A model generated the notes under the pieces. That model saw only the letters and a list, made by a program, of their open reading frames with translations, did not search any database and was not told the origin of the DNA. Shown piece after piece: positions 10,239 to 47,200 of a DNA stretch of 64,000 nucleotides. Position 1 is the stretch's first letter. Each line of letters starts with the position of its first letter. Source of the stretch: Candidatus Hydrogenedentota bacterium. Its GTDB lineage: Bacteria > Hydrogenedentota > Hydrogenedentia > Hydrogenedentales > JAEUWI01. The position numbers were made by a program, and so were the translations under genes. Location of the stretch: NCBI GenBank assembly GCA_016182605.1, contig JACPGE010000061.1, forward strand, positions 1-64,000. The letters are read 5' to 3'.

Positions 10239-10585
10239 AGCGCTCACGCTCTCCGGACATTGAGGTAAGCGAAAATTGGCGCAAATGCCGGCTATCCCGC
10301 ATATTTCACCACTTTGCGACTTCCGGATCGCATTCGGATTGGCAACGTGGTGAAATATGCTCAGCGTGGCGATGGTGCTGGCGTTCACCAAGCAGGCTAA
10401 ATCACGGGCTGTCTGGCGATACCGCTGTGCATGCTGCCGCAACGACGGGTGTGGGATGGAGTTATGGAACGAACGCATGAAGCCCGTGATTTATCCGGGG
10501 AAAAAACTTCAGTAGCACGCGAACGCTGGAACTGCACTCTGTCCCCTCATGCCTGGATTTGAGGGGAACTCTCGCTGCGCACCGC
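10239..10585. repeat. Convergent intergenic gap with a composite repeat
   Basis: The gap between vsr and the convergent pdxJ gene holds one composite palindromic element (10293-10500), annotated separately. The remaining bases at 10501-10585 show no gene and no obvious terminator. Confidence 0.6.
10293..10500. mobile_element. Composite inverted-repeat element, copy 1
   Basis: Two adjoining palindromic modules. Module A: GCATATTTCACCAC (10299-10312) pairs with GTGGTGAAATATGC (10347-10360). Module B: TAAATCACGGGCT (10398-10410) pairs with AGCCCGTGATTTA (10481-10493). The segment 10387-10499 is identical, base for base, to 38119-38231. The same A-then-B order occurs near 37.8-38.1 kb. It has no coding capacity, so it resembles a MITE-like element moved by a transposase elsewhere; the parent element is not identified. 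Confidence 0.7.
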
Positions 10586-11296
10586 TCACCGGAGCAGCGC
10601 CAATATTTCCTGCACCGCATTGCTCAGGCCAATGAAGATGCTGCGCGCGACGATATCGTGGCCAATGTTTACTTCGCGGAGTCCGGGCAGGGCGGCGACG
10701 GGCGCGAGGTTTTTCACGGTGAGGCCGTGGCCCGCGTGAAATGCAATGGGGTGTTTGGCAATGTGTTCCGCACAGGCGCGGAGCCGCGCAAACTCAGCAT
10801 CGCGCGCGGCGCCTTCGGCGTTGGCATACGCGCCGGTGTGCAGCTCGACCGAGTCCGCGCCGGTGGCGATGCTCGCGTCCACCTGATCGATATCGGGATC
10901 GATGAAGATGGAGACCTTGATGCCGCGGGCGTGCATGCCTTGCACAACTTCGGCGAGGCGGTCCTGTTGTGCCGTGACATCGAGCCCGCCTTCGGTGGTC
11001 ACTTCGGTGCGGTTCTCTGGAACGAGGCAAACGGTGTAGGGCGTGATCTCGTGGGCAATGGCAATGATCTCGGGGACGGCGGCCATTTCGAAGTTCATTC
11101 GCACCCGCAACGCCTCGCGAAGGGTGTAGATGTCGTGATCGTGGATGTGCCGCCGATCCTGGCGCAGGTGCACGGTGATCTGGTGGGCGCCCGCGGCCTC
11201 GCAAACGCGGGCGGCCTCAAGGACACTGGGGACGGCCCCTTTGCGCGCCTCGCGCAGTGTGGCGATGTGATCGATGTTTACGCCGAGTTCAACCAT
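10586..11296 (-). CDS. pdxJ: Pyridoxine 5'-phosphate synthase PdxJ
   Basis: A 236-aa PdxJ of normal length. It condenses 1-deoxyxylulose 5-phosphate with 3-amino-2-oxopropyl phosphate to form pyridoxine 5'-phosphate in the DXP-dependent vitamin B6 pathway. Visible motifs: LGVNIDHIATLREAR at the N-terminus, QITVHLRQDRRHIHDHDI, VPENRTEVTTEGGLDV, VELHTGAYA and FHAGHGLTVKN. The ATG is preceded by AAAGGAAA at a workable distance. It lies 212 nt downstream of glmM on the same strand, with a repeat mosaic in between, so read-through from the ftsH-folP-glmM operon is uncertain. Confidence 0.95.
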   Translation of the reverse strand: MVELGVNIDHIATLREARKGAVPSVLEAARVCEAAGAHQITVHLRQDRRHIHDHDIYTLREALRVRMNFEMAAVPEIIAIAHEITPYTVCLVPENRTEVTTEGGLDVTAQQDRLAEVVQGMHARGIKVSIFIDPDIDQVDASIATGADSVELHTGAYANAEGAARDAEFARLRACAEHIAKHPIAFHAGHGLTVKNLAPVAALPGLREVNIGHDIVARSIFIGLSNAVQEILALLR

Positions 11297-23737: not shown

Positions 23738-26700
23738 TCAGGCGTGGCGGCGCCGGGAAAAGAGCACGAGCGAACCAAGCAGCAAGAAGACAAGCGCCGC
23801 ATCGCCCGAATGGGGGGGGCCGGCACCCGGAGCGCAACTGGTGGCTTTTGTGGCGCCCTTCGAAAGCGCCACGAGCACCGACGCCAACTGGCCGTCTTGC
23901 ACAGTGACCGGTACGGACTTTTGCGCAAAGCCCGCGGCGGTCACCGTGATGGTGTAGCTGTCCCCCACCACGGATGGAAAGGCGTAGACGCCGTCCACGT
24001 TGCTGGTGATGGCGCCGAATGCGCTTGGGGTGAGGGTTACGGAGGCGTTGGTGATGCGAACCTGATCGCCGCCATTCCAGACCGTGACAAAGAGCGAGGC
24101 GGCCAGGATGGCGGACTGGAGGGAGAAGAACTCGCCGAAATCCGCATCGCCGTCGATCAGTGCGTCGATCTCCGATTCCACTTGGGTGCTCCAGCCATTG
24201 CTGCGCATGCCTACCTGCTGGCCGCTGCTGTTGATCACAGCGCGGGCCGCGCCAGCGGGGTCGAGATCGAAGGCGTTGAAACCGGTTTCCGGATCGGACT
24301 CGTCGCCGAGGGTTGCCTCGCCGTCGACGATGGCGTTCGCGGCGATCTCGATGGCGGCGCGGCCGATCAGCCGGAAAATGTTTCTGCGGATCAGCGGGAA
24401 GCGGCCATCGATCACGATGCCGGTGTCCAGATTTTGGAATGTGGACCGCTCGATTAAGGCGCCGCGCGTGACCACGCCGTCCGTGAGAATTGCGGTAATG
24501 CCGGTCTGGGTCAGGCCATCGAAGATCACGTTGGTCACGGCCATGTCGATGCCGGCGATATTGAGCAAGGTCAGATTGTTCGCGCTGGGCGGCTCCACGG
24601 TCAGATTGGCGAGGGTGGCGCCCGCCGCACCTGCGATCTGCCCCATCAGCACGGCTTCGCTGTTTGTGGCGGCAGGACCGGTGAGGGTCAGGGCGGGTTG
24701 GAGGGCCACGTTTTCGGTGTAGACACCTTGTAGCAGGATGAGCCGCAGCGGGTTTGCGGAGGTGGAGGTGTTTTCCTGCAGGGCAAACGCAATGGTTTGA
24801 TAGGGCTGAGAGGAAGAACCTGACGAGGGCAAATCGGCGCCATCGGGGGACACGAAAATGGTGCGCACGGGATCGCTGGCATCCACTGGGCTGGCATCCT
24901 GGAGGAACTCTTCCAGGTTCGTGAAGGCATCGCGATCGAGATCGCCGAGAGCGTCATTCGGATCGACAGGATTGAGGCCGAAGGCCACTTCGTAGCCGTC
25001 TGGCAGACCATCGCCATCGGTATCGGGAAGATTGGCGGCCGAACCGAGACACGCCTCCAGACAATCGGTGAGGCCATCGCCATCGGCATCCGCACGCTGA
25101 TCCTCACATTCGCTGGCGCAGGTTTCGAAGGTACTATCGCGCGTAAAGACGGGCCAGCCCAGCAGGGCGCAGTCTTCCGTGGAAGTAATGACCTCGGGTA
25201 GTTCCTTCTTGTTGGAATCGGCTCGCAGCACACACAAAACAAGGGTATCCCCTTCCACATCGTAGGCCCCTTCGAATACGGCCACCTCTTCCAGGGGTTC
25301 GCCGTCCACTTTGGTCGTGATGAGTACAATTCGCTGCTGCGCGGGAAAGCTGAAGAAGGTGCCGCTCAGGGTGTTGAACAGGGTCTGGTCAATACCGAAA
25401 TCCTTTTGCAGGAGTTCGTCCGCAATCGTCTCTTCACTCTTCAGTCCGCCCTTCGTGAACTCGTCCGTCAGTTCAAAGCGGTTGCCGTCGAAAAGGAGCG
25501 CAATCAACTCTTCATCGGTTTCTCCGAGCCATTTCCCCTGGAGTTCCGGATCGAACTCGGGCTCGCCTTCGCCCTCTCCTTCACCTTCACCTTCGCCTTC
25601 GCCCTCACCTTCGCCTTCGCCCTCACCTTCGCCTGAACCTTCAGGAATGAGCACTGGGCTACTAAACGCGGATGTATTATTCTCCAGGATGGTCGTGGCC
25701 GCGGTGAGGTTCATGCCTGGGAATGGGCTGAGTACGAAGGCGGCGGTGCTGAACGTACCAGCTCCACCCACTTCGATGGATCCCAGGTGAATCTCGCCCT
25801 GGCCCTGGCTGTCGACATAGAAGTCGACGATGGAATTGGGCGCCGCAGTGCCGTTGAGTGGGCTTAGACCTAGTATCGCAGGTGGCATGACACCGTTGTT
25901 TGCGCCGTTGGTGACGGAGATGCCCGCGAGCCCATTGTCCGTGATGCTGTTTCCACGCACGGCGACGCCGGCCGTGGCGCTGCCGTCGATCCGGACGCCG
26001 TCTTCACTGTTGTACCAAATGATATTGTGCGCACCTTCTTCAGCGCCACCGATGCTCACATTCACGGCGCCTCCCCCCACGAAGATGCCCGCGCCCTGGT
26101 TGGGAACGGCGCCCAGCCCCGTGACGGCGGCGCCGATGCGGTTGCCCTGGATGATTACGCCACTAACATCGGGTCCGGAGACGTTTATGCCGTGGTCGAG
26201 GTTGCCGCCGATAAGATTTCCTTCGTTGTTATTGCTGCCTCCAATGAGGGTATCGTTGGGCCCGGAGTAAATGAGGATGCCGGAACCTCCATTCGGGAGT
26301 GCGGACAGCCCGTCTGATGTGAGCCCGATGTAGTTGTGAATGATCCGGTTCCGGTCGCTGCCCAAGCCTTCAACCAGGATGCCGCCGCCGATGAAGTCCC
26401 CCTTGGCGTTTTTTGCAGGCGTGTCGCCATTCGCGGAGATGATATTTTTTGGGATGGCGAGGGTGGCGCCGATGATGTTGTCCGATGCGCCGCCGGCAAT
26501 CATGACGCCGCAAATATCGTTTCCGAGGTTTAGGGCGCCCGCCGGGTTGGTGCCGATGAAGGAGCCGATGACATTGTTAAAGGTGGTGCCGTTGTTTTCG
26601 ATGAGAATACCGTAGGTATTGGCGCAGATGATATTGGGCGCGTCCTCCGCGATGTCGCCGATTACGTTGAACCCGGCTCCACCCTTGATGTGAATTCCGG

Positions 26701-28912
26701 CGAAGCCGTTACCTTGGGTGGTGCTTCCGTCGGTGCCGATATTGCATGCACTGATGACGTTGCCCTTGGCGCCGGGTCCATCCAGCACGATTCCGGAGCC
26801 GGTAAAGTTCACAATGGTAATGCCGGAGACGATGTTGGAACCGGAATTCAGCACCAGTCCGTTGATGGCGATGGACCCGTCGGTAAAACGGTTTTGTCCG
26901 TCGAGGGTGATGTTTCCGTTTCCGTCGAGCACGAGGGCGCCGCCCTGATCGTCAATGGACGGCAGGGGCGCATCCAGAAGAATGGCGCCCGCCACGCTGA
27001 AGCCGATCGCATTATCGCCGGGAGTGGCGTTGCAGGCGGCGAGGGCCTCCGGCAGGCTGATTTTTCCGTCGGCTCCGCGATCGGCCTTGAGGGCGAGCAG
27101 GGAGGTGGTGTTGCCGTCTTGCAGGCTGGAGAGGGTGTCGACGATGGCGGTGGCGCTTGCGTTGATGGCGCTCTGCACTTCGGCCATCGAGACAAACCCA
27201 TCCTGGTTCGCATCCAGGAGCGTGAATATGGCGTCCAGCGCCGCGCCCGCATCGGGAAAGGCGCCACGCGCCTCCGCCAAGGAAACGAGGTCATCCGCAT
27301 TGGTGTCGAGAATTGCGAATTGCGTGTCGAGGGTCTGGGCCACGGTGAGCGGATCGAGTTCCTGGCTGAGGCCGATGGGAAGGCTGAATTCGGAGGTGTT
27401 GTTGGACTGGCTGGTGACGGTTGCGGTGAGGCTGAGCGCGAGATAGGATCTGAGGTCCACGAATTGCTGGAAGTTGCCGTTGCTGTCACTCAGGAGATCC
27501 GCAACGTGCAACAGTCCTTCGCCGCCGAGGTCCGCGAAGAGTTCTATGAAAGCATCGGGCTCCGCGGTTCCGGTCACAGGATCGATCGCGGTGATGGTGG
27601 GGGGAGCAATACCCCCTTGGCCGCCAAAGCCGATGGAGATCCCTTTCCCTTGGGCATGGCCGGTGATGTGGTTGTGGCGGACGCCATTCCCGTGGGCGGT
27701 GTCGTCCAGTTGAATGCCGTGAAGCCCGTTGAACTGGATGAAATTCCCCTGGCCAAGCGATCCGCCGACATCGTTTCCATTGGCCCCCGCAGTGAAGGCG
27801 ACACCGGATCCGCCATTGCCCAGGGTGTTCACAAAGCTGGTGTTGGTGCCGATGAAATTGCGGGACACCCGGTTGCCGAAGGCGGTTTCGCCGGAGAGGA
27901 GCACGCCTTGATCGAGATTGCCCGCGATGAAGTTTCCATCCCCCTGCTCGTTGCCGCCGATGATGTTGTTGTTGCTGCTCTGCACAAAGATGCCGCGGCC
28001 ATTCCCGAGGGCTGCGTTTGCGGTCGCATCGAGGCCGATGGTATTTCCGGAGATCGTGGTTTCGGAGGAATCACTGATGAGACTGATTCCGGCCGTGGTG
28101 TTGCCGGAGATTACATTGCGGAAGAGCGGATTGGGCCCGCCGATGATGGTGTTGGCCGCGAAGGTGTCTACCTGCACCCCGGTGCCATTTGGAATGGCGG
28201 TGCTTCCCAGGGCATTGACACCAATGTAGTTTCCTCGCAGTTCATTTCCTTGGGCGCCCAGATCGGAAATGCGCACACCGAAACCGGAATTGCCTGAGAT
28301 GATGTTTCTATCCAGGAAGGATTCTCCCCCGATGACGTTCCCAGACGCGCCGCGTTCGATGGAGATGCCGGCGATGAAATTCCGGCGCGCGGCCGCGCCG
28401 TCATTGCCAATGAGGCACCCTGCGATGGTGTTTCCAACGGCATCGGCGCCCGTGAGGAGGATGCCGGTGGACAACATGCGCACCACACCGAGGCGCCGGA
28501 CGGTGTTTGCGCCGCTGGTTATCCTGAGTCCGGTGGGAACCTGGTCTTGGCCGTCGAGCACGGTTCCGTTTCCATTGAGCAGCAGGGCCCCGCTGGTGTC
28601 GCTGATGGCGGGCAGTTCTTCTGTGAGCAGGATGGTTCCGGAGACCGGGATGTCGATCTGTTCCGCGCCTGAATCGGCGGCGGCGGCCACACGGAGGGCT
28701 TCGCGCAGGGATATGAGGCCATCGATCCCCGGGTCGCTGCCCAGGCCTACGGCGGTCGAGGCCGGGGAGTCATCCACATCGTTCAAGGTGTTGACGGTGA
28801 TGGTGTTGACTTGTTTCTGAGCCAGCGCTTCCGGGCAGGTGAGCGGGGCGAGGAGAATGAGTACGCTCAGGAGCTGCATGAAAGCGCGCAGCGGTGCGGG
28901 TGCTTGATTCAT
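23738..28912 (-). CDS. Giant beta-helix surface protein with sorting tail (1724 aa)
   Basis: A secreted protein: signal peptide (SVLILLAPLTCPEALAQ); a CSLREA-like entry (GLISLREALRVA, about 37-79); long right-handed beta-helix repeats (NxIGG, GNxISGN, GNxIG); paired EF-hands (DTNADDLVSLAE, DANQDGFVSMAE, about 527-577); more beta-helix; a Gly-Glu dipeptide linker (about 1092-1117); thrombospondin-3-like calcium repeats (DADGDGLTDC, DTDGDGLPDGYE, about 1264-1320); another beta-helix; a carboxypeptidase-regulatory-like fold; and a C-terminal Cys-hydrophobic-Arg tail ending RRRHA that resembles MYXO-CTERM-type sorting signals. Probably a calcium-stabilised cell-surface adhesin or glycan-binding protein. 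The start at 28912 places the signal peptide correctly; the longer frame is unsupported. It shares its architecture with the upstream gene. Confidence 0.82.
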   Translation of the reverse strand: MNQAPAPLRAFMQLLSVLILLAPLTCPEALAQKQVNTITVNTLNDVDDSPASTAVGLGSDPGIDGLISLREALRVAAAADSGAEQIDIPVSGTILLTEELPAISDTSGALLLNGNGTVLDGQDQVPTGLRITSGANTVRRLGVVRMLSTGILLTGADAVGNTIAGCLIGNDGAAARRNFIAGISIERGASGNVIGGESFLDRNIISGNSGFGVRISDLGAQGNELRGNYIGVNALGSTAIPNGTGVQVDTFAANTIIGGPNPLFRNVISGNTTAGISLISDSSETTISGNTIGLDATANAALGNGRGIFVQSSNNNIIGGNEQGDGNFIAGNLDQGVLLSGETAFGNRVSRNFIGTNTSFVNTLGNGGSGVAFTAGANGNDVGGSLGQGNFIQFNGLHGIQLDDTAHGNGVRHNHITGHAQGKGISIGFGGQGGIAPPTITAIDPVTGTAEPDAFIELFADLGGEGLLHVADLLSDSNGNFQQFVDLRSYLALSLTATVTSQSNNTSEFSLPIGLSQELDPLTVAQTLDTQFAILDTNADDLVSLAEARGAFPDAGAALDAIFTLLDANQDGFVSMAEVQSAINASATAIVDTLSSLQDGNTTSLLALKADRGADGKISLPEALAACNATPGDNAIGFSVAGAILLDAPLPSIDDQGGALVLDGNGNITLDGQNRFTDGSIAINGLVLNSGSNIVSGITIVNFTGSGIVLDGPGAKGNVISACNIGTDGSTTQGNGFAGIHIKGGAGFNVIGDIAEDAPNIICANTYGILIENNGTTFNNVIGSFIGTNPAGALNLGNDICGVMIAGGASDNIIGATLAIPKNIISANGDTPAKNAKGDFIGGGILVEGLGSDRNRIIHNYIGLTSDGLSALPNGGSGILIYSGPNDTLIGGSNNNEGNLIGGNLDHGINVSGPDVSGVIIQGNRIGAAVTGLGAVPNQGAGIFVGGGAVNVSIGGAEEGAHNIIWYNSEDGVRIDGSATAGVAVRGNSITDNGLAGISVTNGANNGVMPPAILGLSPLNGTAAPNSIVDFYVDSQGQGEIHLGSIEVGGAGTFSTAAFVLSPFPGMNLTAATTILENNTSAFSSPVLIPEGSGEGEGEGEGEGEGEGEGEGEGEGEPEFDPELQGKWLGETDEELIALLFDGNRFELTDEFTKGGLKSEETIADELLQKDFGIDQTLFNTLSGTFFSFPAQQRIVLITTKVDGEPLEEVAVFEGAYDVEGDTLVLCVLRADSNKKELPEVITSTEDCALLGWPVFTRDSTFETCASECEDQRADADGDGLTDCLEACLGSAANLPDTDGDGLPDGYEVAFGLNPVDPNDALGDLDRDAFTNLEEFLQDASPVDASDPVRTIFVSPDGADLPSSGSSSQPYQTIAFALQENTSTSANPLRLILLQGVYTENVALQPALTLTGPAATNSEAVLMGQIAGAAGATLANLTVEPPSANNLTLLNIAGIDMAVTNVIFDGLTQTGITAILTDGVVTRGALIERSTFQNLDTGIVIDGRFPLIRRNIFRLIGRAAIEIAANAIVDGEATLGDESDPETGFNAFDLDPAGAARAVINSSGQQVGMRSNGWSTQVESEIDALIDGDADFGEFFSLQSAILAASLFVTVWNGGDQVRITNASVTLTPSAFGAITSNVDGVYAFPSVVGDSYTITVTAAGFAQKSVPVTVQDGQLASVLVALSKGATKATSCAPGAGPPHSGDAALVFLLLGSLVLFSRRRHA
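25558..25637 (-). repeat. Gly-Glu codon repeat (linker)
   Basis: About a dozen tandem GGN-GAR codon pairs encode a Gly-Glu linker in the 1724-aa protein. On the plus strand it reads as CCTTCGCCTTCACC-type hexamers. Synonymous third-position changes break the DNA repeat while keeping the dipeptide. A short version (GEGEGEG) occurs in the EF-hand lipoprotein near 40.34 kb. Confidence 0.9.
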
Positions 28913-29008
28913 GTCGGGTATCCCGGTTGGGTTCTGGCAAGAATGTGGAAGGGCACATGCACTACTGCCCATGCAATTAAGCATGCCACGCGTGGGCCTG
29001 ACAGTCAA

Positions 29009-29041
29009 CACGCCCTGACGCTGTTTAGACGTCAGGGCGTG
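29009..29041 (-). terminator. Hairpin between the two giant surface-protein genes
   Basis: Perfect 12-bp stem CACGCCCTGACG (29009-29020) / CGTCAGGGCGTG (29030-29041), 9-nt loop, 31 nt past the stop of the 2252-aa gene. There is no long T run, but its position fits termination of the upstream gene before the 1724-aa gene begins. Confidence 0.6.
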
Positions 29042-29072
29042 GAAAGCGCAAATTCTCGATCGGGCGCCTGGA

Positions 29073-32000
29073 TCAGGGGCGGGCACGGATCTTTCGCCGC
29101 GCGAGCACGAGAGCACCCGCCACGAAGAGCATCAGAAGCAGATCCGCACGGGTCGAGGAAGCATCGGTGGCCCCGCCGTGGCAGGAGTTGCCCGATTTGC
29201 CCTCCAGCGCGGCGAGGATCACGGTGATCAGAAGATCGTCCTGTTCCTCCACCTCAACGGTAAGCTGCTGGGTCTCGAAGCCCGGCGCAGCGACTTCAAC
29301 CGTGTAGATGCCTGGGGGCACCTGATAGAGCGAATAGATGCCACCCGCGCCCGCGCCACGCAGCGCAGCCCCGTCAATGAAGGTGACCGTGGCATTGCCG
29401 ACCCGGCTTTGATCTTCGTTACTCATCACGACCACCGTGGCCGCCCCGCCCGCAGCGGCCCCGGCGGGGGTCAGGAAGGGCTGGAAGTCCACGGGACCGG
29501 TGATCTGGGCCGCAATGGCGCTGGCCTGAGCGGTATCCCACTCGTTCCGTTCCATCACCAGGGTATCGTCCGTGCTGTTGATGACGGTCTTGCCATCGGC
29601 GATCCGGAAGCGGTTGGCGCCGGTGGCCGCGTTGCTGGCGCTGCCGAGGGCGTTGCCCACGGTGGCCGAGGCCCGGAGGAAGATGGCTGCGATAGAGGTG
29701 TTTTCAAAGGTGCAGTTCCGAATCTGTGGCACGGCCCCGAGGATATCGATGCCGATGGACAGATCCTGGAAGGTGCACGAATCGAGCAGGGCGCCGGCGG
29801 TGCGGCTGCCCAAGGCCATCAGGCCGGTGCCGGGCCGGGCTTCCGTGCCCGCAAAGATGACGTTGTACACGCTCATGGCCACGTTGTCCAAGGTGAGCAG
29901 GACTTCGTCGTTAAAGGCGTTCAACTGCATGTTGGCCAGGTACGCGCCTTCGGCCCCGAGCAGGGTGCCGTCGATCTGCACGTCACCGCCCAGCACACCG
30001 ACGAGGCTGAGGTGCGGCAGGAGGTCTATGTCTTCTCCGTACACGCCCTCGGCCAGGACGATACGCACCCGCGCAGCCGCCGTGGGGCTGACCTGCGCCA
30101 TGGCAAAACCGATCGTTCTCCAGGGGGCGGCCATGGCGCCGCCGCCCGCCACATCCACACCATCGGGTGAGACGTAGAAGGTGGTTTCTGGATCGCTCGC
30201 GTCGAAGGGGTCCGAAATGGCGACAAATTCGTCCCGGTTTCGCGCCTGATCTTCGTCTTCATCGAGCAGGGCATCGTCGGCAAGCGGATCCAGATTGTAA
30301 GCCACTTCATAGCCATCCGCCATGCCGTCGCCATCGGAATCCGGATTCGCGTCGTCGGTTCCGAGGCACTCTTCCACACAGGCGATGAGGCCATCGCCAT
30401 CAAGGTCGGTCAGCGGCGCCACGGCGCATTGCACGTCGCAGGGCAGCGGGCATTCGAGCACGGTGACCGTGCGGGTGACCTGGATGGCGTCATTCCCTTC
30501 ACCGTCAGAGACGTTGTAGAGCACGGTATAGACCCCTGCCACCTCCGTGTTGACATTGATCGTCGTGTCGATTTCGGTGGTCAGGTCGCCCTCACAATCA
30601 TCGTTGGCGACCGCGCCGGGATCGATATAGTCGGTGTTGCAGGCCACGCTCAGGGTGGCGCCGCCCAAGAGGGTGATTTCTGGCGCAGTCCGGTCGCGCA
30701 CGGTCACTGTGCGAGTGGCCGGCGCCGCTTCATTGCCGCTGCTGTCTTCGGCGGCGTAGGTCAATACGTACTCGCCCGGTGAGAAGGCGTTGACTGAACC
30801 CGTGGTTAGCACTTCCACTTGGCTGTCGCACGCGTCTTGCACGAGTACACCCTGTTCCACGTACGGCGTGCCACATTCCAGCACGATGGAGGCGCCGCCA
30901 ATGAGGGTCAGCGTGGGCGCGAGGTTGTCCGTAACAGTCACCTTGCGGCCAACGGTGGCCGCCTCATTGCCCGAATCGTCGCTCGCTGCATAGAGCAGGT
31001 TGTAGACGCCCGGCGTCGAGATGTCTACCGTACCGATGGTGCGCAAGGCCGGGGTGCTGTCGCAACCATCCACAACCGAAGCGCCCGGATCGTTGAAGGG
31101 CGTATTGCAGGACAGCTCCATCTCCGCAGGGCCAATGAGCGTAATCACCGGTGCTTCGGCATCCTGCACCCGCACGGTGCGCGTGCGGCGCGTGGCCGCA
31201 TTGCCGTTGGAGTCCACGGCGTCATAGGTTATGGTGAAGTTTGCCAGTGCGGAGGTCACAACCGTATCGCCGCCCACGACGATCTCCGCGCCCGGATCGC
31301 AGGAATCCGCCAGCACGGCGCCCGGATCGGTGAAGACCGTGCCGCATTGCACAATCACGGTGCTGTCTCCAAGAAGGCTGATGACAGGCGCAACGGTGTC
31401 TATGACGCGAACGATGCGCGTGACCGGATCCGCAGGCCGGCCCAAGGTGTCCGATACGGTGTATATGAGTTCGTAGACGAGACCTGCCGGGCTGTTTGCA
31501 ATGGCGGTCTGGGGCGCGCCGTCCAGCAGGATCTGGCGCTGCACCCGGCTGGAGATGTCCCCATCCACGTCGTCGATCGCGGTGACGCCCGGCTCCGTGT
31601 AGGCGCCGGCGCCGCATTGAATGGAGATGTCGGAAGAACCCAGAAGTGTGATTTCCGGCTGGGCCAGATCGACGATTACAGGAAGACTGAAGGCGCTCGT
31701 ATTGTTCTGTGCGTTGGTGGCGGTAGCCGTGAGGCGCATGCCGGCATAGGGATTGAGATTCAGTTGCAGCGTGGCTTCCCCGGCGCCGTCGAGCACGGTT
31801 TCCGCAATAAAGGTATTGCCTTCGTTATCGTTGTCAGCGAAGATCTCGATCGTGGCGCCAGCCACCCCGGTGAGGCCGATGCTCTGTTCGTTCCCTGCCG
31901 CAGAGATGCCCGTGATCACCGGAGGCAAGATGCCGCCATTGGCGCCCGAAGCCAGCACGATGCCGGCCTGGCCGTTGCGCGTGATGGCGTTGCGCGTGAT

Positions 32001-35000
32001 CTGATGGCCCGTGGCGCCGGCGCCCTGAATGCGCACCCCTGCATTGGTATTGCCCAGGATGGTGTTCTGTTGGATCAGGGTGTTGCGCGGGGTTGTGAGT
32101 ACCTGTATGCCATCGCCGCGGTTGGCGACCGCGACACCGAATTGGCTCGCGCCGACGGTGTTGAAGCGAATCACCGAGTTGTCGGTGCCGGCATCGATTA
32201 CAAAGATGCCGTTCCTCTGATTGCCAGCGATGACGTTGCCTTCCGCGGCCGAAGCGCCACCAATGGTGGTGAGGGTGGCACCGTTGCTCAGCAGGACCCC
32301 ATAGCTGCCGTTGCCCAAAGCATTGACCCCGGCTGCGTTCAAACCGATGAAGTTTCCGGCAACCACATTGTTCTGGGTGCCCGCATCCTGAATCGTCACA
32401 CCGGTGACCATGTTTCCGGAGAGGATATTCCGGGCCTCGGCATTGCTGCCACCGACCAGGTTGGCGTCTGCTCCGGCGCCGATCAACACGCCGTTGCCAT
32501 CATTTGGAAAGGATTGAACGCCATCGTTTCCGATATTGCAGCCTTCAATGATGTTGTTGGAGGCGCTGGCGCCCAGGATACTGATGCCGTCTGCCGGGAA
32601 ATGGATCAGCGTGAGTCCGCTGATCCGATTGTCTGCGGAGACGATCCGCAGACCCGCGAGACTGCCGCTAAGGTCCGAGCCGTCCAGCGTTATCATGCCA
32701 TCGCCATTGATGGCGGTGCCGCCCGTGGGGTCGGTCAGGGCGGGCAAGGCGCTGCCAAGAACTATCGTTCCTTCGGCGAGGAAACTGATGGTATCTGCGC
32801 CCGCGTGATTGTTCGCGGCGATAATGGATTCGCGGAGACTGCGGAAACCATCGGGTCCTGGATTGGCCAGGAGGTGGGCCAGATCGGAGGTGTTGCCGTC
32901 CACAATGTCGGTGAGGGTATTGACGCCAACTTCCATGGTATTGGCGGCGATCACGGTAAGGCGCACCAGCGCCGTCGTGTCGCTGCCGAGCGTATTGCTT
33001 ACGATGCAACGGTAGAAGCCGGAATCGTCCAATTGCGCTGCGGCAATGGAGAGCTGTGGGGCATTGCCATTGGCGACGTTGGCAAAGGAGACGCCGTTTG
33101 CCGCGAACTGCCATCGATACGTAAGGATCTCGCTCCCGGTTGCGGTAGTGGAAAACTGAGCCGGATCGCCTTCCACCACGATCAAGGACGTGGGTTCGGT
33201 GGCGATCGCGGGGGCAATCACGGGCACGGGCACACTGAAGGTGGACGTATTTCCGGCGGCATTAATGGCAATTGCCGTAAGGTTGATATTGTTCAGGCCT
33301 TGCAGGCTTGCATTGGAGGACCAAGCGCCACTGCCGTTGGCCTGAGTGGCCCCCAGGAAGATCCGGCCCTCGTCTTCGTCGTCGGCAAAAATCTCCACAT
33401 TGGCATTCGGCAATGCGGTGCCCGAAAGCGGGCTCACGGTGACAATGGCCGGCGCCGCCATATTGCCATTGCCATTAAACAGATGAACGATGCCATCACC
33501 GCCATTGCGGTAGATCAAGTTGTGGGAAATTTCGTTAAATACGGAGAGGGTGCCATTAATAATGACGCCATCGCCGCCGTTGTTTGCAATGATGTTTCCC
33601 GTGGATACGGAATCACCGCCGACTGTGTTCGACCGGGAACCTTCCCGGATATTGACGCCGGTGCCGGCATTGGGAATGGGAGTGGTTCCGTTGAGGCCCA
33701 CGCCGATAAAATTTCCGCTTACTGTGTTAAATTGGGACTCGCCCTTGGCGATGCGCACACCGTCCCCCTGATTTCCTGAGATGACGTTTGCGCTGGCGGC
33801 TCCGCTTCCTCCAATGTCATTGGAAACAGCTCCCCTGTCCATGAGTATGCCATGACGTGTGTTGGGGAGCGCCGCCGTACCGGCGAGATTGGTGCCGATA
33901 CGGTTCCCGATCACCTGGATGAAATCGGCTTCATCCAGGATCAGCCCGTCGATGTTGTTTCCGGAAATCAGATTTCCGGCACCGGGCTCCGTACCCCCAA
34001 TACGAACTTCTTCCACCGCCCCGCCCACGTAGAGCCCAGAGTTCTGATTGGGAATGCGGGCGGTACCCGAGGCATTCGTGCCGATATAGTTGCCTTCTAC
34101 AACGTGGCCCACGGTCCTGAGAAAATTGCTTTGAATGAGGAGGCCCCGGAAACCGTTTCCGGAGATGACATTGCCTTCTCCCGGAGCACTGCCCCCCACT
34201 TGGGTATTATTACAGGAGGTGGTAATTAAGATGCCCGCACTGGAATTGCCCAAGGCAGCATCACCGTTCTTGGTCAGGCCAATGTAATTCCCCTGAACCA
34301 CGGTGTTGTTTGAGGAACTCAAATCGATTCCAGGCTGGGAGAATTCGCTGTCTCCGCTATTTCCCGAGATGATGTTGCGACCGAGCGGATCCGGCGAGCC
34401 GATAATCGTTTGGAATGGGCCGTTCACGACCGTGATTCCTGTGAGTGCGTTCTGAGCGGCGCCCGCACCCCCGGCGCCCGCCCCGACGATATTGCCGAAG
34501 ATACGGTTGTTGTCGGTGTCTTCACCCTCGACAAGAATTCCCGCACCGTAGACATTCAAGTCGAGAAAGATTGCGCTGCCAGTGCTGAAATCGCGAAATC
34601 CATTGCCCGATGCCACATTGCCGGCGTTTTCCAGCAAGTCACCGATAAAGTTCTCGCTGGCGCCGCCTCGAATGGCAATTCCGGAAAACGCATTGCCCTC
34701 TTTCGTTACTCCGTCCGCCGCTACACCGACGTAATTCCCGATTACGCGGTTCCCCGAGGTGCCCGTGCCGGAAAGCAGAATGCCAAAGCCTCGGCTGATC
34801 GGTTCAACCCGATCAAACAAGACATAGTTGTTCATGAGGTCCCGGCCTGCGACCTTGTAGGTGACGGTGTCCGTACGCCCATTGGCGCCGATGACATTTC
34901 TGGCCGCAACGTTCAGGCCGCCAATGACGTTGTCCGTGGCGCCATTGAGCACGGCAATGCCCGTGCCGGTGTTCTGGCGGACGGTACAACCCCGAATACG

Positions 35001-35831
35001 GTTGTTGGCGGCGCCTACCCCAGACAATCGAATGGCCCCATCGCCGAACTTGGTGATGGTGAGGCCCTGGATGGTGTTGTTTGGACTAACGGCCAGGAAG
35101 ACATAGGGACTCGCCTCAAACTCTTCAAGTTCGCGATCGACGTCCGGAGATTCTGTGTCGCTTGGAATAACCGGTCCGGCGCCAAAGAGTATACCGTCAC
35201 CCGCACCGGTATTGTCGGGTCCAAATCCGATGTCAACACGGTCAAAAGCCGATTGATCAAAGTAATCCAGGGTAAAGCGGAAGTCCGTCACGGGCGTTTG
35301 AAAATCTAGTATCCCGTTGAAGAATCCATTTTGAACTTCAGCGAGCGTCAGTCCGCCACTCATATCCGTGTCGAGGTTGTCGAACTCCTGCGCCATTTGA
35401 TCCACGATCTTTTTCAGGTCGTCGTCGCAAATATCTCCATCGATCACCACCTGACCGGGATTGGCGATGATGGTCACCCCGTCTGTATCCGTAAACGGTG
35501 GATAGGGCCGACGCGGGCTGATAATGCTGATGCCGGGCGCAAATTGAATCGTATCGTGTCCGGGATTCTCATTGGCCTCTTCGATGGCTGCGCGCAGGGA
35601 GGTCACTCCGGAACCAATGGTAATTTCGGCGATACCGTCACCCGGGATAGCATCCCGGTCATCGCCTTCATCGTCGAAATCGATATTGGTCGTGGTGCGC
35701 CCCAAGTTGACGATGAAGGTTTCCGCGCCCGCTTTGCCCGTGGCGACTATGGCGGTCAGCACCAGCGCCAGTACGGAGACGAGAACACAATACGCGACTC
35801 TCTGCCGGGAGTCACCCCGTAGACTTGTCAT
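29073..35831 (-). CDS. Giant beta-helix surface protein with Ig-like repeats (2252 aa)
   Basis: A secreted protein with a signal (VLVSVLALVLTAIVATGKAG) and a CSLREA-like entry (VTSLRAAIEEANE); an EF-hand (DTDMSGGLTLAE); long right-handed beta-helix tracts; an Ig-like domain (about 870-960, SGFYRCIVSN); a second entry motif (FRSLRESIIAANN) with more beta-helix; five tandem DUF5011/HYR-like Ig repeats (about 1394-1794, pattern ITLLG...VxCG...DPGA...SDxxGN); thrombospondin-3-like repeats (DLDGDGLIAC, DSDGDGMADGYE); a pectate-lyase-like segment; and a C-terminal Cys-hydrophobic-Arg tail. I chose the ATG at 35831 (GAGGG, 7-nt spacer). The tail modules parallel those of the downstream 1724-aa gene, indicating paralogy. 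Probably a cell-surface adhesion or binding protein. Confidence 0.83.
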   Translation of the reverse strand: MTSLRGDSRQRVAYCVLVSVLALVLTAIVATGKAGAETFIVNLGRTTTNIDFDDEGDDRDAIPGDGIAEITIGSGVTSLRAAIEEANENPGHDTIQFAPGISIISPRRPYPPFTDTDGVTIIANPGQVVIDGDICDDDLKKIVDQMAQEFDNLDTDMSGGLTLAEVQNGFFNGILDFQTPVTDFRFTLDYFDQSAFDRVDIGFGPDNTGAGDGILFGAGPVIPSDTESPDVDRELEEFEASPYVFLAVSPNNTIQGLTITKFGDGAIRLSGVGAANNRIRGCTVRQNTGTGIAVLNGATDNVIGGLNVAARNVIGANGRTDTVTYKVAGRDLMNNYVLFDRVEPISRGFGILLSGTGTSGNRVIGNYVGVAADGVTKEGNAFSGIAIRGGASENFIGDLLENAGNVASGNGFRDFSTGSAIFLDLNVYGAGILVEGEDTDNNRIFGNIVGAGAGGAGAAQNALTGITVVNGPFQTIIGSPDPLGRNIISGNSGDSEFSQPGIDLSSSNNTVVQGNYIGLTKNGDAALGNSSAGILITTSCNNTQVGGSAPGEGNVISGNGFRGLLIQSNFLRTVGHVVEGNYIGTNASGTARIPNQNSGLYVGGAVEEVRIGGTEPGAGNLISGNNIDGLILDEADFIQVIGNRIGTNLAGTAALPNTRHGILMDRGAVSNDIGGSGAASANVISGNQGDGVRIAKGESQFNTVSGNFIGVGLNGTTPIPNAGTGVNIREGSRSNTVGGDSVSTGNIIANNGGDGVIINGTLSVFNEISHNLIYRNGGDGIVHLFNGNGNMAAPAIVTVSPLSGTALPNANVEIFADDEDEGRIFLGATQANGSGAWSSNASLQGLNNINLTAIAINAAGNTSTFSVPVPVIAPAIATEPTSLIVVEGDPAQFSTTATGSEILTYRWQFAANGVSFANVANGNAPQLSIAAAQLDDSGFYRCIVSNTLGSDTTALVRLTVIAANTMEVGVNTLTDIVDGNTSDLAHLLANPGPDGFRSLRESIIAANNHAGADTISFLAEGTIVLGSALPALTDPTGGTAINGDGMITLDGSDLSGSLAGLRIVSADNRISGLTLIHFPADGISILGASASNNIIEGCNIGNDGVQSFPNDGNGVLIGAGADANLVGGSNAEARNILSGNMVTGVTIQDAGTQNNVVAGNFIGLNAAGVNALGNGSYGVLLSNGATLTTIGGASAAEGNVIAGNQRNGIFVIDAGTDNSVIRFNTVGASQFGVAVANRGDGIQVLTTPRNTLIQQNTILGNTNAGVRIQGAGATGHQITRNAITRNGQAGIVLASGANGGILPPVITGISAAGNEQSIGLTGVAGATIEIFADNDNEGNTFIAETVLDGAGEATLQLNLNPYAGMRLTATATNAQNNTSAFSLPVIVDLAQPEITLLGSSDISIQCGAGAYTEPGVTAIDDVDGDISSRVQRQILLDGAPQTAIANSPAGLVYELIYTVSDTLGRPADPVTRIVRVIDTVAPVISLLGDSTVIVQCGTVFTDPGAVLADSCDPGAEIVVGGDTVVTSALANFTITYDAVDSNGNAATRRTRTVRVQDAEAPVITLIGPAEMELSCNTPFNDPGASVVDGCDSTPALRTIGTVDISTPGVYNLLYAASDDSGNEAATVGRKVTVTDNLAPTLTLIGGASIVLECGTPYVEQGVLVQDACDSQVEVLTTGSVNAFSPGEYVLTYAAEDSSGNEAAPATRTVTVRDRTAPEITLLGGATLSVACNTDYIDPGAVANDDCEGDLTTEIDTTINVNTEVAGVYTVLYNVSDGEGNDAIQVTRTVTVLECPLPCDVQCAVAPLTDLDGDGLIACVEECLGTDDANPDSDGDGMADGYEVAYNLDPLADDALLDEDEDQARNRDEFVAISDPFDASDPETTFYVSPDGVDVAGGGAMAAPWRTIGFAMAQVSPTAAARVRIVLAEGVYGEDIDLLPHLSLVGVLGGDVQIDGTLLGAEGAYLANMQLNAFNDEVLLTLDNVAMSVYNVIFAGTEARPGTGLMALGSRTAGALLDSCTFQDLSIGIDILGAVPQIRNCTFENTSIAAIFLRASATVGNALGSASNAATGANRFRIADGKTVINSTDDTLVMERNEWDTAQASAIAAQITGPVDFQPFLTPAGAAAGGAATVVVMSNEDQSRVGNATVTFIDGAALRGAGAGGIYSLYQVPPGIYTVEVAAPGFETQQLTVEVEEQDDLLITVILAALEGKSGNSCHGGATDASSTRADLLLMLFVAGALVLARRKIRARP

Positions 35832-36143
35832 GGTAATCCCTCTATCAACTGCACGTTTTGCCAAAGCGCAACCGCGTCACAATCCGAAAACACACGAAGC
35901 CTGGAGGTGCGCGCGAACCTGCTTTATTCAGAGTCAGCCGCCCTGGCGGACCGCGCACGGCTCCCGGTTTGATAAAAACTTTACAGCGTCTCTAACGTTT
36001 TACGCTCCAAGCATATACTGACAGACTAGGATAGCCGGTACAAGCGGCAAAGGCAAGAGATTCTTGCGGCAGCCGCATATGCATTCTACGAAATGCAATT
36101 AATTGCCATGGGTCCGGAGCGCCCGGAACGCGAATCTACGCTA
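35832..36143. other. Gap between hisS and the 2252-aa gene
   Basis: A 312-nt AT-richer gap. It lies downstream of hisS and upstream of the giant gene on the minus strand. I see a small CCGCC/GGCGG hairpin near 35940 and no convincing promoter, terminator or gene. Confidence 0.5.
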
Positions 36144-37769: not shown

Positions 37770-38235
37770 CTAGCCCGCATATTTCACCAGTTCAAACCTT
37801 TTTGGCAACGGGCTCGACTTGGAGGTGGTGAAATATGCTCAGCGTGACGACGGTGCTGGCGTTCACCGGGCAGGATAAATCACGGGCTGTCGTGGGGGTA
37901 CCGCGAAGCATGTTGTGGCAATTGCGGGTCTAAGAAGGAGTTACGAAACGAACGCGTGGAGCCCGTGAATTATCCGGGCTAGCCCGCATATTTCACCACT
38001 CTCTGGCCTCCAGATTGTATCCGGATTGGCAACGTGGTGAAATATGCTCAGCGTGACGATGGTGCTGGCGTTCACTGGGTAGGCTAAATCACGGGCTGTT
38101 TGTTATTCTCAGACTTGAACCAAGCAGGCTAAATCACGGGCTGTCTGGCGATACCGCTGTGCATGCTGCCGCAACGACGGGTGTGGGATGGAGTTATGGA
38201 ACGAACGCATGAAGCCCGTGATTTATCCGGGCTAG
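37770..38235. mobile_element. Tandem array of composite inverted-repeat elements
   Basis: Three units related to the 10.3-kb element. Unit 2 (37770-37982): module A arms GCATATTTCACCA (37777-37789)/TGGTGAAATATGC (37826-37838), then module B arms GGATAAATCACGGGCT/AGCCCGTGAATTATCC. Unit 3 (37979-38100): a complete module A (37986-37999/38034-38047) followed by a truncated B. Unit 4 (38119-38235): module B only, identical to 10387-10499 over 113 nt. Outer ends read TAGCCCGCAT and ATCCGGGCTA, an imperfect terminal inverted repeat, and CTAG occurs at 37770, at the unit 2/3 junction (37979) and at the right end (38232). No transposase is encoded. MITE-like; the parent is unknown. Confidence 0.72.
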
Positions 38236-40051: not shown

Positions 40052-40723
40052 ATGATACACTATGGCAAGCGGGCAACAATGGGGCGATTGCGCTCGGCAG
40101 GGCTGGGTGCACTTCTCGCCGCGATCGGCGCAGGGTGTATTGTGGAGCCGGACCTGAACAGGATCGCTGCCGTATTGCTTGGCGAGTTCGACGCATTGGA
40201 TATTGATCGCGACAACACATTGTCCTTTTTCGAAACGCAGGGCGCGTCTATAGAAGTGAGCCAGACCAGTTTCACCGCATTGGATGATGACCATAACGGT
40301 GGGCTCACCCGCCAGGAACTTGGAATGGGAGGCGAGGGTGAGGGCGAGGGCAATCCATTGGAGCTAAGCTTTGCGCGGGAAATCACTGCACTGGACGGTG
40401 GTTTCCAGGTTACGATTCGCATGGACGCGCCGGCATCGGCTCCTTCCGCCCTTGGGATGATGGAGTCCCTGCCAGAGGGGTGGGCCATATCGGGCGTGAT
40501 GGCAATAGATGGGGCCGCGCCGGACCTGGCGCCTTCCGTGGGCGCCACAGGAACGGTAGAGTTTGTTTGGGTTCAGCCCGTGGTATTTCCGTATCGATTT
40601 GCGTATACGGTGCAGGCGGATACTGGGGCCGGGCAAGAGGGTTTGTCGGGGCAGTTGGAGTATCGCACGGATCGGGACGAGCGCTACTTCTCCTCCGCGG
40701 TGACGGAGAATGACGATGCGTAA
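40052..40723 (+). CDS. EF-hand exported protein, probable lipoprotein
   Basis: A 223-aa protein with a signal and possible lipobox (LLAAIGAGC, Cys29; glycine at -3 is unusual). Two EF-hand loops follow (DIDRDNTLSFFE, DDDHNGGLTRQE), then a short Gly-Glu linker (GEGEGEG), then a roughly 110-residue module (FQVTIRMDA... LPEGWAISGV... GTVEFVWVQP... GLSGQLEYR) that is clearly related to the N-terminal part of the next gene. Function is unknown; calcium binding and surface location are inferred. An internal ATG at 40079 would also give a good signal peptide. The gene overlaps the next by 8 nt. Confidence 0.72.
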   Translation: MIHYGKRATMGRLRSAGLGALLAAIGAGCIVEPDLNRIAAVLLGEFDALDIDRDNTLSFFETQGASIEVSQTSFTALDDDHNGGLTRQELGMGGEGEGEGNPLELSFAREITALDGGFQVTIRMDAPASAPSALGMMESLPEGWAISGVMAIDGAAPDLAPSVGATGTVEFVWVQPVVFPYRFAYTVQADTGAGQEGLSGQLEYRTDRDERYFSSAVTENDDA

Positions 40724-41891
40724 TCCAGAGCACAATCGCTTGGTCCTCTGTTTGGCGCACGTGTGCCTGTTCTTGATCTCCCCCGTCTCGAAGGGACAGC
40801 CTGCTCCGCAGGCCGGACTGATCCTGGAGCGGAACCACGCGGAGCAGTATCTTTCCGGAGACACGCTGGAAGTGGAGGCGCTGATCGGTGGAGGAGATGG
40901 GCTGGAACTTACCGCGCTTGGCCTGTACGAAACACCGCCTTCGGAATGGACGCTCCTGTCGTGGGAAATCGACGGTGGGGCGAATCCCGGCGTTGCCCCG
41001 CGGGTGGGCGCCTCTGGCGTGCTGGAATTTGCCTGGATCACGGTGCCGCCGCTGCCGGTGCGCCTGCGCTACGTCATGTCGATACCGGAGGGCAGCACAG
41101 GCGAACAGTTTTTTTCCGGCCAGGTGGAGTACCGCCTGACGTCGGGGGGCCGCCAGTATAGCGCCCCAACAACAAGTTCGGTGTACGGTGGGGACAATGC
41201 GCCGCCGGTCATTGCGCTGCAAGGGTCTACCGAGATGGCGTTCGTGGTGGGCACGCCGTACGAGGAGCCTGGATTTGAAGCGAGCGATCCGGAAGATGGC
41301 GATCTCACGGCGCAGGTTGCGGTGAATGGCACGGTGGACGTGGATACGCCGGGGGTCTACGTGTTGACGTATACGGTATCCGACAGCAAAGGGCTTGCGG
41401 CGCGCGCAGCCACGCGTACGGTAAGCGTGAGCGAAGACGAGCCCGAGGCGGGCCGCGATCCTGCGGCGCCTGCCGCTAGCGCGATTGGCAATGGCTTGGC
41501 GCCGGCCGCCGGCGCGCAGTCCGCCGTCAAACCGGCTGCACCGGTGGGCAATATGATACTGCCCTCTTCGCGCCCGGAAGACCCCCCTTCCCTTGAAGTT
41601 CCCGGGGAGCGCTTTGGCCCACCCGAGCTGCCCGGCACGGCGCATCGCTCAGAGAAGACGGGTGAAGGCGATGCGCGGCTTGAAGATCGCGCACCGGACG
41701 CTGCTGAAGGGAGCGGCGCTTCGCACGTGCTTGACCCGGCGGATGCGCGGCTTCAGGAAGGGAAGGCCCAATCAACGGACACGAAAGCGGGCGGCGTCTC
41801 CGTACCCCTGTCCGTGAAGTTGTTCTTTGGATTTGCCGTGCCCTGCGTCCTGGCGCTCGCGGCTGGGTGGTACTTCGTGCACCGGCGCTAA
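40716..41891 (+). CDS. Exported protein with DUF5011 Ig-like domain and C-terminal helix
   Basis: A 391-aa protein: signal peptide (LCLAHVCLFLISPVSKG), a module matching the neighbour upstream (LTALGLYETPPSEWTLLSWE, SGVLEFAWI, FFSGQVEYR), one DUF5011/HYR-like Ig domain (about 160-240, with PYEEPGFEASDPEDGDL), a low-complexity Pro/Ala/Glu stalk, then a C-terminal transmembrane helix (SVKLFFGFAVPCVLALAAGW) and HRR. This suits a stalked cell-surface protein. I prefer ATG 40716 (GGAG, 7-nt spacer) over 40710. Its TAA stop is formed by the first three bases of an inverted-repeat element, so that insertion defines its end. Confidence 0.75.
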   Translation: MRNPEHNRLVLCLAHVCLFLISPVSKGQPAPQAGLILERNHAEQYLSGDTLEVEALIGGGDGLELTALGLYETPPSEWTLLSWEIDGGANPGVAPRVGASGVLEFAWITVPPLPVRLRYVMSIPEGSTGEQFFSGQVEYRLTSGGRQYSAPTTSSVYGGDNAPPVIALQGSTEMAFVVGTPYEEPGFEASDPEDGDLTAQVAVNGTVDVDTPGVYVLTYTVSDSKGLAARAATRTVSVSEDEPEAGRDPAAPAASAIGNGLAPAAGAQSAVKPAAPVGNMILPSSRPEDPPSLEVPGERFGPPELPGTAHRSEKTGEGDARLEDRAPDAAEGSGASHVLDPADARLQEGKAQSTDTKAGGVSVPLSVKLFFGFAVPCVLALAAGWYFVHRR

Positions 41892-41963
41892 CCCGCATAT
41901 TTCACCACTTCAAGGCTTCTTGGCAACGAGTTCGACTTGGAAGGTGGTGAAATATGCGGGTTA
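41889..41963. mobile_element. MITE-like palindromic element with 20-bp terminal repeats
   Basis: TAACCCGCATATTTCACCAC (41889-41908) is the perfect reverse complement of GTGGTGAAATATGCGGGTTA (41944-41963). The interior (TTCAAGGCTTCTTGGCAACG, GTTCGACTTGG) is close to that of the module A copy at 37.79 kb. At 75 bp it is the cleanest stand-alone copy of module A and lacks module B. It provides the TAA of the upstream gene. Confidence 0.8.
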
Positions 41964-44231: not shown

Positions 44232-47200
44232 ATGCCCCAATTTCTCCTCGCGGGTTTTGGCCTGCTCCTCGCCATTCAGTCTCTGGTTACCGCTCAACCG
44301 GAAGCGTTCCCGGATCGGGACGCGGCGATTCGCGCCCGTTTCGAGGCGATCCTGGAATCAAACCCTTTCCAGGGGCAGGCTTTTGAACGGCTCGCCGCCG
44401 GCCACATCACTGGCGCAGGTCTCGAGGCCTGGGCCGATCGACTCGCTGCATTGCCCCCTGCGTTCAGCGGGCGCGTCGTTCTCGCGCGAGTACGGGAACG
44501 CCAGTTCCGAATCGCAGAAGCGATACGGCTTCTGGAGGAGGCGCGCTCGCTCGCGCCCCCCTCGGGCGAACTGCTGCAGATGTTGGGCCGGCTGTATCAG
44601 CAGGCGCACAAACCCCTCGAGGCCGAGACCGTATTGAGCGAAGCGCTGCCGTTCCTCCTAGACCCGGAGGCGCGCACCGCCGTCTTGCGCATGCTTGGCG
44701 TCATTCAAAGCGAGTCCGGCCGTGCGGAGGAAGCTCTGGCCACCTGGGAAAGTCTGCTGGGAGAGGGGCAGCCTGACCGCTATGCCTTCCTGGATGCGGC
44801 AGAACTGTATCTGCAACACGGCCATACGGAAGCCGCTCTCGCCACGTACGAAAAGCTGCTTGCCGCATTTCCGGACGATGTAACCCTTCAATGCCGCACA
44901 CGCAGTACGATGGCGAGCAGTCTGCTGAAACTGGAGCGGCCCGAAGAGGCGTTTGCCAACCTCATGAAGGCGTTTTCCCTGATATCGCCGGATCACTGGT
45001 TCTATGCAAAGCTGACGGAGCAATGGGTGGAATTGGCGCGTTCTTCGAGCGACGCAAGCAGCATGATCGAGTCCCTCCGGCAAGATCCCGCGCTGGGATT
45101 GTTGGAAGAGCCGCGTCTGCAACTCCTGGCACAGGCCTACGCCGCCTTGGGGCGCACCGAAGATGCTCTAGCGGCCTATGCGAGTCTGCTGGAGCGGGAT
45201 CCTGCGAACGTATTGCTGCTTGAAGCACGGCTCAAGCTTCAGGAAGCCGCCAAGGACCTCTCGGGGCGGCTAGCCACACTTCAACGACTGCGGGAGATTG
45301 TGCCAGGCAACACGGATTACATTTACCAGCTCGGCATCGGATTGCTGGAAGCCGGCAATAATGCCGAAGCCCTCGCGGCATGGCAGACCCTGTCTGAGGG
45401 CGACACCGATGGCACGCGCGAGGCCCTGCTGGCGGGCTGGCTTCGGGAGAAGGAGCTGCTGGAAGAGGCCAAGGCTGCGTTGCGCCGCGCCGTGCAGAAA
45501 GACGACCGGCCCGAGTGGCGCTTCCAGTTGGCCCAACTGGAGTTCGAAACGGGCAACCGGGATGTGGCACTGACGTTGTGGAAGGAACAACTCGGCCCGG
45601 AGGCTCCCGCCGCCGCACTGGCAGAAGTATCGGCCATCTTTAAGAACCATGACATGAATGACGAAGCCCTGGCATTGATGCGGACCGCGGTCGAACGTGC
45701 GCCAGAGGATGCGGCGCTCCGCCTCACGCTCGCCGATCAGTTGCGCGAGGGCGGGCTCGCGGAGGAAAGCCTGCCCCACTACGAACGCGTGGCACGGGAA
45801 GGCCAGATACCCTATCAGATCGAATCGGCCGACAAGGGCCGCATCGCCGTGCTGGAGTCGCTTAACCGCCTCGAAAGCACCCTGGAGGAGGAACGCCAGG
45901 CGCTGCCCGGCATGGGATTTGAAGAACGCTTCGCCTTCGGCCGTTTGCTCTACCAAGCGGGGCGCCGCACAGAAGCCGTGACGCTTTGGGAACAGCAGTT
46001 GGCGGAAAGGTCCGATTATTCGCCGCTCTTGCGTTCTCTCGCGGAAGCCTATGCCCGCCAGAAGGAATACTCCAAGTCCATTGCACTTTACACCCAGCTT
46101 ATGGAGAAAGAGCCCGCGCGCGCCAATGCCTGGCTGCAGGCGCTTGTCGATCTCTATCTGGCCTCTGGCGCGCAGGGCGAGGCCGTCGCAACGGCGGAAC
46201 GGCTGGCACGCCAGTTTAACGAGGACGAGCGCATAGCCTTGCAACTTGTGAACCTGTATGAGAGCCTGGGGCGTCCCGAGGATGCCCTCCAACAACTCCG
46301 CCGCATTGTGCGTGTGCATCCCGATGATCCCGCGCTCCTGCTGGCGCTTGCGGGTGCGCTCGCGGATCGCCAGCAATGGGGAGAGGCCAATGAAACCTAC
46401 CGCCGGCTTCTGGCGCGCGCCGGCGGGAAGGAACTGCGCACGCAAGCCCTAGACGGGCTCGCCCAGGTCTATCGCGCACAAGATCGCTTTGAGGCGTTGC
46501 TGGCGGAGTTTGAGCCTTTGAAGAAGGGCGCTTCGGCGACGCTACAGGACTATCTGGATTGCGCCACCGTGCAGCGCATCGCGGGGGATTATCCCGCGGC
46601 GGTGCAGACCCTGGAAACGGCGCTTCAGGAAACGGGCGAAACCCCGGAGCTGCTTGAAGAGATCATCTACACCGCGCATCAGGGCGAAATGCTGGAAAAG
46701 GTGGTGCAGTACTTTGCCCGCCTCAATGCGCAGCACGCGCCCTCCGCGGCGGACTATGAGCACCTTGGGGCAACCTACGCGCGCATGGGCGACCTGGACA
46801 AAGCCCGGGAAACATGGGAGAAGATGACCACAACGGGCGAGGACGCCGCCGCGATTCATATACGCCAGGCCAAACTGTTCCGCCAGAATCAATTGATCGA
46901 GGAATCGCTGTCCGCGATGGAGAAGGCCCTCGATATCACGCCCCACGATCACGAGTTGCGGCTGGCCTACGCGAGCAGCCTGGCGGAAGCGGGCCATACG
47001 GCAGAGGCTACAGCCGCGTTGCAGCGCGTTCTCGATCTTGGCGCTGGTCCGGGATTGGAAGCATCGGAACCCGAGGAAAATGACGCGCAGAAGGCTGATG
47101 CCGGCCCGGGCCATGCGTTCTCGCTGTATCGCTTCAGCGAGAATTACCGTGGCCAGTCCGTGCCCACGCGCGGCAAGATGACCTACGAGCTGTTTCGCAT

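Follow-up and report, generated by a model that had tools for sequence, protein, structure and literature searches.

The stretch of DNA analysed here, referred to as the window, comprises the first 64,000 nucleotides of contig JACPGE010000061.1 from a Candidatus Hydrogenedentota bacterium. A gene for a Vsr mismatch endonuclease (PF03852, 9819-10238) and the convergent pdxJ gene (10586-11296) are separated in this window by a repeat element of 204 bp with an A+B structure (10296-10499, on the forward strand, as are all the elements of the window described below), which we call copy 1 and which has the Vsr gene directly upstream. The final 113 nucleotides of this element (10387-10499), consisting of the last part of a linker and the entire B hairpin as far as the right terminus, are 100% identical to positions 38119-38231. 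This exact identity, first noticed in a sequence-only reading, was verified by a repeat search (family D2) and by a letter-by-letter comparison. By chance alone, 64 kb would be expected to contain no exact repeat longer than about 16 nt. The identity starts within the linker (ACCAAGCAGG) and ends exactly at the right terminus of the element, at 10499 and 38231.

Copy 1 follows the order outer end, A loop, inner A stem, linker, inner B stem, B loop, and outer end. The outer left end, which is also the A stem (CCCGCATATTTCACCAC, 10296-10312), is followed by the inner A stem (TGGTGAAATATGC, 10348-10360), where TCA stands in place of the terminal GGG. A conserved linker (10361-10397) joins this hairpin to the inner B stem (TAAATCACGGGCTG, 10398-10411), which is preceded by CAGG in place of the terminal CCCG, and the element closes with the outer right end, or B stem (AAGCCCGTGATTTATCCGGG, 10480-10499). 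The left flank of copy 1 (CTAT, 10292-10295) is target DNA, and the right flank reads GAAA, so that a target duplication is absent at this site. The second locus is an array of two elements, one of 205 bp (37774-37978) and a chimeric one of 249 bp (37983-38231), each flanked by CTAG (37770-37773, 37979-37982, and 38232-38235, the middle one being common to both). The chimeric copy starts as A, linker, and a B2-type loop, switches inside this B loop to copy-1-type linker and B, and reaches the right terminus with the 113-nt segment. At the third site (41892-41960), module A is found without B, as a near-perfect palindrome of 69 bp with two ends of the IS1380 type, flanked by CTAA (41888-41891, whose TAA doubles as the stop codon of the ORF at 40710-41891) and TTAA. 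The window also holds a 116-nt repeat, 72% identical between 24969-25084 and 30286-30401, within two ORFs of great length on the minus strand (23738-29116 and 29073-35864), where it probably reflects repeated protein domains, as well as an ORF of 2891 aa at 44232-52907.

A search of the source genome (6.76 Mb in 130 contigs) with positions 10285-10505 as a query of 221 bp yields 68 matches, 44 of them spanning all or most of the query. The left-end 16-mer, allowing up to two mismatches, occurs at about 200 genomic sites, against one per strand for the reversed control, and the right-end 17-mer at 171 sites, against none. At least 84-89 full-length copies are spread over many contigs, and all 89 differ in sequence. 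Aligning the copies together with their flanks places the true ends of the element at CCCGCATATTTCACCA...TGATTTATCCGGG, which gives a length of 204 or 205 bp, imperfect terminal inverted repeats (CCCGCATATTTCACCA / CCCGGATAAATCACGG), and an interior where a transposase gene is absent. An exact 4-bp duplication flanks 72 of 111 A+B hits, compared with a mean of 15 and a maximum of 27 when left and right flanks are paired by shuffling. Among the 89 full-length copies the duplication is exact in 63 and agrees at three of four bases in 17 more; a stricter recount finds it exact in 62 of 84. The commonest duplications are CTAA, TTAG, CTAG, ATAG, and TTAA, which mostly fit YTAR. Since the same four bases are found on both sides outside these ends, the TAGCCCGCAT/ATCCGGGCTA ends proposed in the sequence-only reading, rightly described as imperfect, wrongly took in TAG/CTA of the target. 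Arrays have a period of 208-209 bp because tandem copies have one YTAR in common. Nested insertions are also observed, with a MITE copy placed in TTAG of another copy's B loop at L042 (C29:100.2 kb) and L046 (C43:119.1 kb). A preference for insertion at stop codons by way of the target's TAR is unsupported (24% of insertions, compared with 17% for control sites; p = 0.09).

An insertion into a gene is found on contig C4, at about 106.6 kb, where a 204-bp copy with CTAT on each side lies within a transposase-like gene. Deleting the 204 bp plus one CTAT restores a single open frame of 488 codons that runs through the junction, and the DDE_Tnp_1 match of the restored gene's 403-aa product spans this junction; the C4 copy is a clean insertion. 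The sequence-only reading had called for occupied and empty sites to be compared in related genomes; this comparison was made inside one genome, by repairing the interrupted gene. The 4-bp duplications in 63 of 89 copies, together with the restoration of the C4 gene on removal, identify the element as a miniature inverted-repeat transposable element (MITE).

Palindromes of this kind might also be kept for their fold, as a structured RNA or regulatory hairpin (riboswitch-like, sRNA, terminator, or with a BIME/REP function). The location of copy 1 between convergent genes, the conserved stems set against diverging loops, and a strong single-strand folding (z = -4.35 and -2.49 for two copies) would agree with such a role. 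However, the folding is accounted for by the inverted ends alone, the window has zero Rfam matches above the gathering threshold, and covariation (0.039 against 0.044 in shuffled alignments, with two doubly changed pairs) shows nothing beyond shuffles. Insertion, moreover, is demonstrated by the target duplications and the interrupted gene, and a function in the fold is thus highly improbable. A 48-aa frame (MLSVTMVLAFTGQAKSRAV...) seen in one loop type was rejected as coding, since inspection shows stops interrupting it in other loop types. There is no support for either an RNA or a protein product. Copies confined to two loci, a known RNA, or part of a conserved gene had been set beforehand as outcomes that would speak against a mobile unit; copies occur well beyond the two loci, and the segment lies outside conserved genes.

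The two modules differ in how often they occur on their own. Module A alone, palindromic over 68-69 bp and bounded by two ends of the IS1380 type, is present in eight copies, four of them with exact duplications, and solo B is rare. The claim that A always precedes B holds as a fixed polarity of the composite, A being found without B as well. In the composite, the inner ends are devoid of the terminal triplet (GCGGG has become GCTCA, and CCCGG has become GCAGG), which suggests that they should not act as transposon ends. Comparison of diverged copies shows that differing sites make up about 47% of the loops, 13% of the linker, 7% of the inner A stem, and 5% of the inner B stem, with indels nearly absent. 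Copies were detected through their outer ends and inner A stem, so that the conservation measured there is biased, whereas detection made no use of the inner B stem or of most of the linker. When recent copies are paired, changes in the inner A stem and in the linker are about as frequent as in the A loop, which fits a free decay after insertion, with constraint confined to the source copies.

The sequence-only reading took the A modules to have drifted in their interiors and B to have moved or been converted recently. The A of copy 1 shows no special drift, the full A+B of this copy having a 99.5% identical twin at C91:56701-56904, and a move or conversion of B on its own is only partly supported. 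It is the whole A+B that moves, and the identical B would be the tail of a recombinant copy. Since the 37983-38231 copy is chimeric, the loop types are reassorted (A and B loop types are found in all main combinations), and copy 1 has a full-length twin, the best reading of the identity is that copies recombined or that template switching took place between them, and a hopping of B alone is unneeded. An independently mobile or site-specifically converted B, transferred without A, would explain why the same B is found at two sites next to different A modules; it could also draw on the reassortment of loop types and on the rare B-like units with R ends at their flanks. Nevertheless, such a B is improbable in view of the twin of the complete copy 1, the missing terminal CCCG at the inner B end, and the joining of 38119-38231 within another B loop, at a junction devoid of a duplication.

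For the composite layout, one possible, if rather doubtful, proposal is that of a bipartite MITE, where two end hairpins were fused and the inner terminal CCC disabled, while the inner stems, their spacing, and the linker were retained because the transposase or a hairpin intermediate would use the inner stems as extra binding sites.

The transposase that would serve this element probably belongs to a family whose traces are found at the ends of contigs. Profile searches of the contigs of the source genome reveal zero full IS1380-type transposases (PF13701) and zero IS701 genes (PF13546). However, IS1380-family ends with YTAR flanks are present at three contig ends (C99, C118, and C94). The left ends at C99 and C118 both read YTAR-CCCGGAAATTTCACCGCACC, the C99 copy being inserted in a MITE, and just inside CTAR-CCCGGAAATTTCACCG both encode a transposase N-terminus, MNTECSASQLEFQGFGSRKVQGAFD. 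At these extreme ends, a transposase query from G006, a genome of the same family as the source, matches with its N-terminus (59% over 29 residues, E = 0.001). Both contigs break at the identical base, as expected of a multi-copy element that the assembler failed to cross. The right end, CTAG-CCCGCATATTTCACCACCCCG, lies at the end of C94, where 255 bp align to the IS1380 3' end of G006 and the C-terminal peptide FTQALRNLENYPLR resembles the C-terminus of the G038 transposase. The C94 right end and the C99 and C118 left ends have no physical link in the assembly, and the IS1380 element of the source genome is inferred from these three contig ends, its intact gene being unassembled. The MITE left end is identical to the right IS end (CTAG-CCCGCATATTTCACCAC, C94) at 17 of 17 nt, and the MITE right end agrees with the left IS end at 12 of 16 positions.

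Complete elements are found elsewhere. G006 has two complete IS1380 copies of 1712 bp (PF13701, E=1.7e-152) with ends CCCGGAAATTTCAC and CCCGGATATTTCACCAC, in CTAG/TTAG, and a Chthoniobacter MAG has a 1633-bp element with such ends and a PF13701 transposase (E=3e-125). YTAR is found beside the IS ends of the three contigs and at the complete copies of G006 and L176, where the left and right tetramers agree at three and two of four bases, respectively; the target motif is thus common to them, and an exact duplication is not seen at these copies. Among the candidates rejected as partners are PF01609 transposases (ISAs1-, IS1634-, and IS1182-like, one of them split by a MITE), whose ends mismatch, and what looked like long elements at L054, L059, and L079, which proved to be chance pairings or to lack duplications.

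YTAR is not exclusive to IS1380, being also the duplication reported for IS5 (PMC10359306), and an IS1634-type transposase with CCCATTTTCCGCAG ends in YTAR is encoded at C24:98161-99087. The mobiliser might accordingly belong to IS5 or be the IS1634-like element at C24, which we regard as most unlikely, since the ends of these elements match no further than CCC, against 17 of 17 nt for IS1380, whose type of ends matches in unrelated phyla too. The left end of the IS1634-like element abuts a B-type MITE fragment at L139 (G000:C24:96661-100587), and a similar end is seen at L140:1219.

Taken together, the 113-nt segment is very probably part of a MITE mobilised in trans by an IS1380-family transposase. 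The earlier suggestion of a gene-less two-hairpin mobile unit is supported by the dispersed copies, the terminal inverted repeats, the 4-bp duplications, the occupied and empty site, and the presence, in this genome, of a transposon whose ends match. The IS1380 transposase would bind the outer CCC ends, excise the element, and join it to a new YTAR, which would be duplicated. The composite may have originated through the joining of two palindromic hairpins, A, which is still found alone, and B. After the loss of CCC/GGG from the inner ends, the outer pair alone would be used, and A+B would travel as one unit. Recombination between copies would then reassort the modules, as suggested by the loop combinations, the 113-nt identity being the tail of one recombinant copy.

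Outside the source genome, the exact A-hairpin pattern has zero matches in the collection of other genomes, and the interior is thus lineage-specific as far as searched. The end motif, in turn, is found in at least 90 stretches from Gammaproteobacteria, Betaproteobacteria, Hydrogenedentota, Verrucomicrobiota, and others. Exact YTAR duplications flank 23 of 36 paired elements, a set which includes one solo A copy from the source genome and two complete IS1380 elements, and their interiors are unrelated to the A+B MITE. G041, from the order of the source genome, has 241 end-motif hits, and its elements share 92-96% identity with elements in a Candidatus Hydrogenedentota MAG, which makes a Hydrogenedentota the probable host. 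Several unrelated MITE families (176-340 bp) that combine ends of the IS1380 type with exact YTAR duplications (L172, L193, L194, L206, L217, L221, L235, and L256) come from Comamonadaceae, Gammaproteobacteria, Thioalkalivibrio, and Hydrogenedentota. Elements of only 23 bp (CCCGCATATTTCACCAATGCGGG), with YTAR-like 4-bp flanks that are exact duplications in four cases, are found at L175, L182, L240, L260, and others (MAG Dive96_bin1.91, JAJRTR01), and could be read as ultra-short IS1380-end units or as excision or solo-end remnants.

The A+B MITE shares terminal CCCG(C/G/A)ATATTTCAC and a 4-bp YTAR target with the IS1380 insertion sequences (PF13701) of G006 and the Chthoniobacter MAG, and differs from them in its 204 bp, its two hairpins, and the lack of a transposase gene. 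An autonomous IS1380 element would require a PF13701 DDE transposase, which the MITE does not encode, and its own genome has end fragments only. REP/BIME elements, associated with RAYT (IS200/IS605-like) transposases, are likewise intergenic palindromes in composite arrays. However, they make no target duplications, and the present MITE, which has them, falls outside the REP/RAYT class. Like bacterial MITEs in general (PMC10969869), it is short, gene-less, and present in high copy number, with terminal inverted repeats, target duplications, and a borrowed transposase; what sets it apart is its composite build from two palindromes, whose inner stems and linker are conserved. The text of that review of prokaryotic MITEs does not mention IS1380 (PMC10969869), and an IS1380-type MITE family with a composite two-hairpin layout is new as far as searches show. 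The eukaryotic piggyBac elements, whose relationship to IS1380 is known to us from PMC10813416 alone, likewise have ends that start with CCC, and a 4-bp target centred on TA (TTAA, with TTAG and CTAA reported as exceptions). Since IS1380 served as the outgroup of the piggyBac superfamily in that work (PMC10813416), bacterial elements that combine CCC ends with a 4-bp target centred on TA offer a useful comparison.

These results connect an abundant family of gene-less repeats with its family of transposases, and show that, in several phyla, unrelated MITEs derive from IS1380 ends that target YTAR. YTAR-CCCGCATATTTCACC represents an easily recognised end motif for annotating such MITEs. If the inner stems do act as binding sites, the element would naturally report how IS1380 ends are built, and, should the bipartite reading be true, its modules could be shuffled by recombination.
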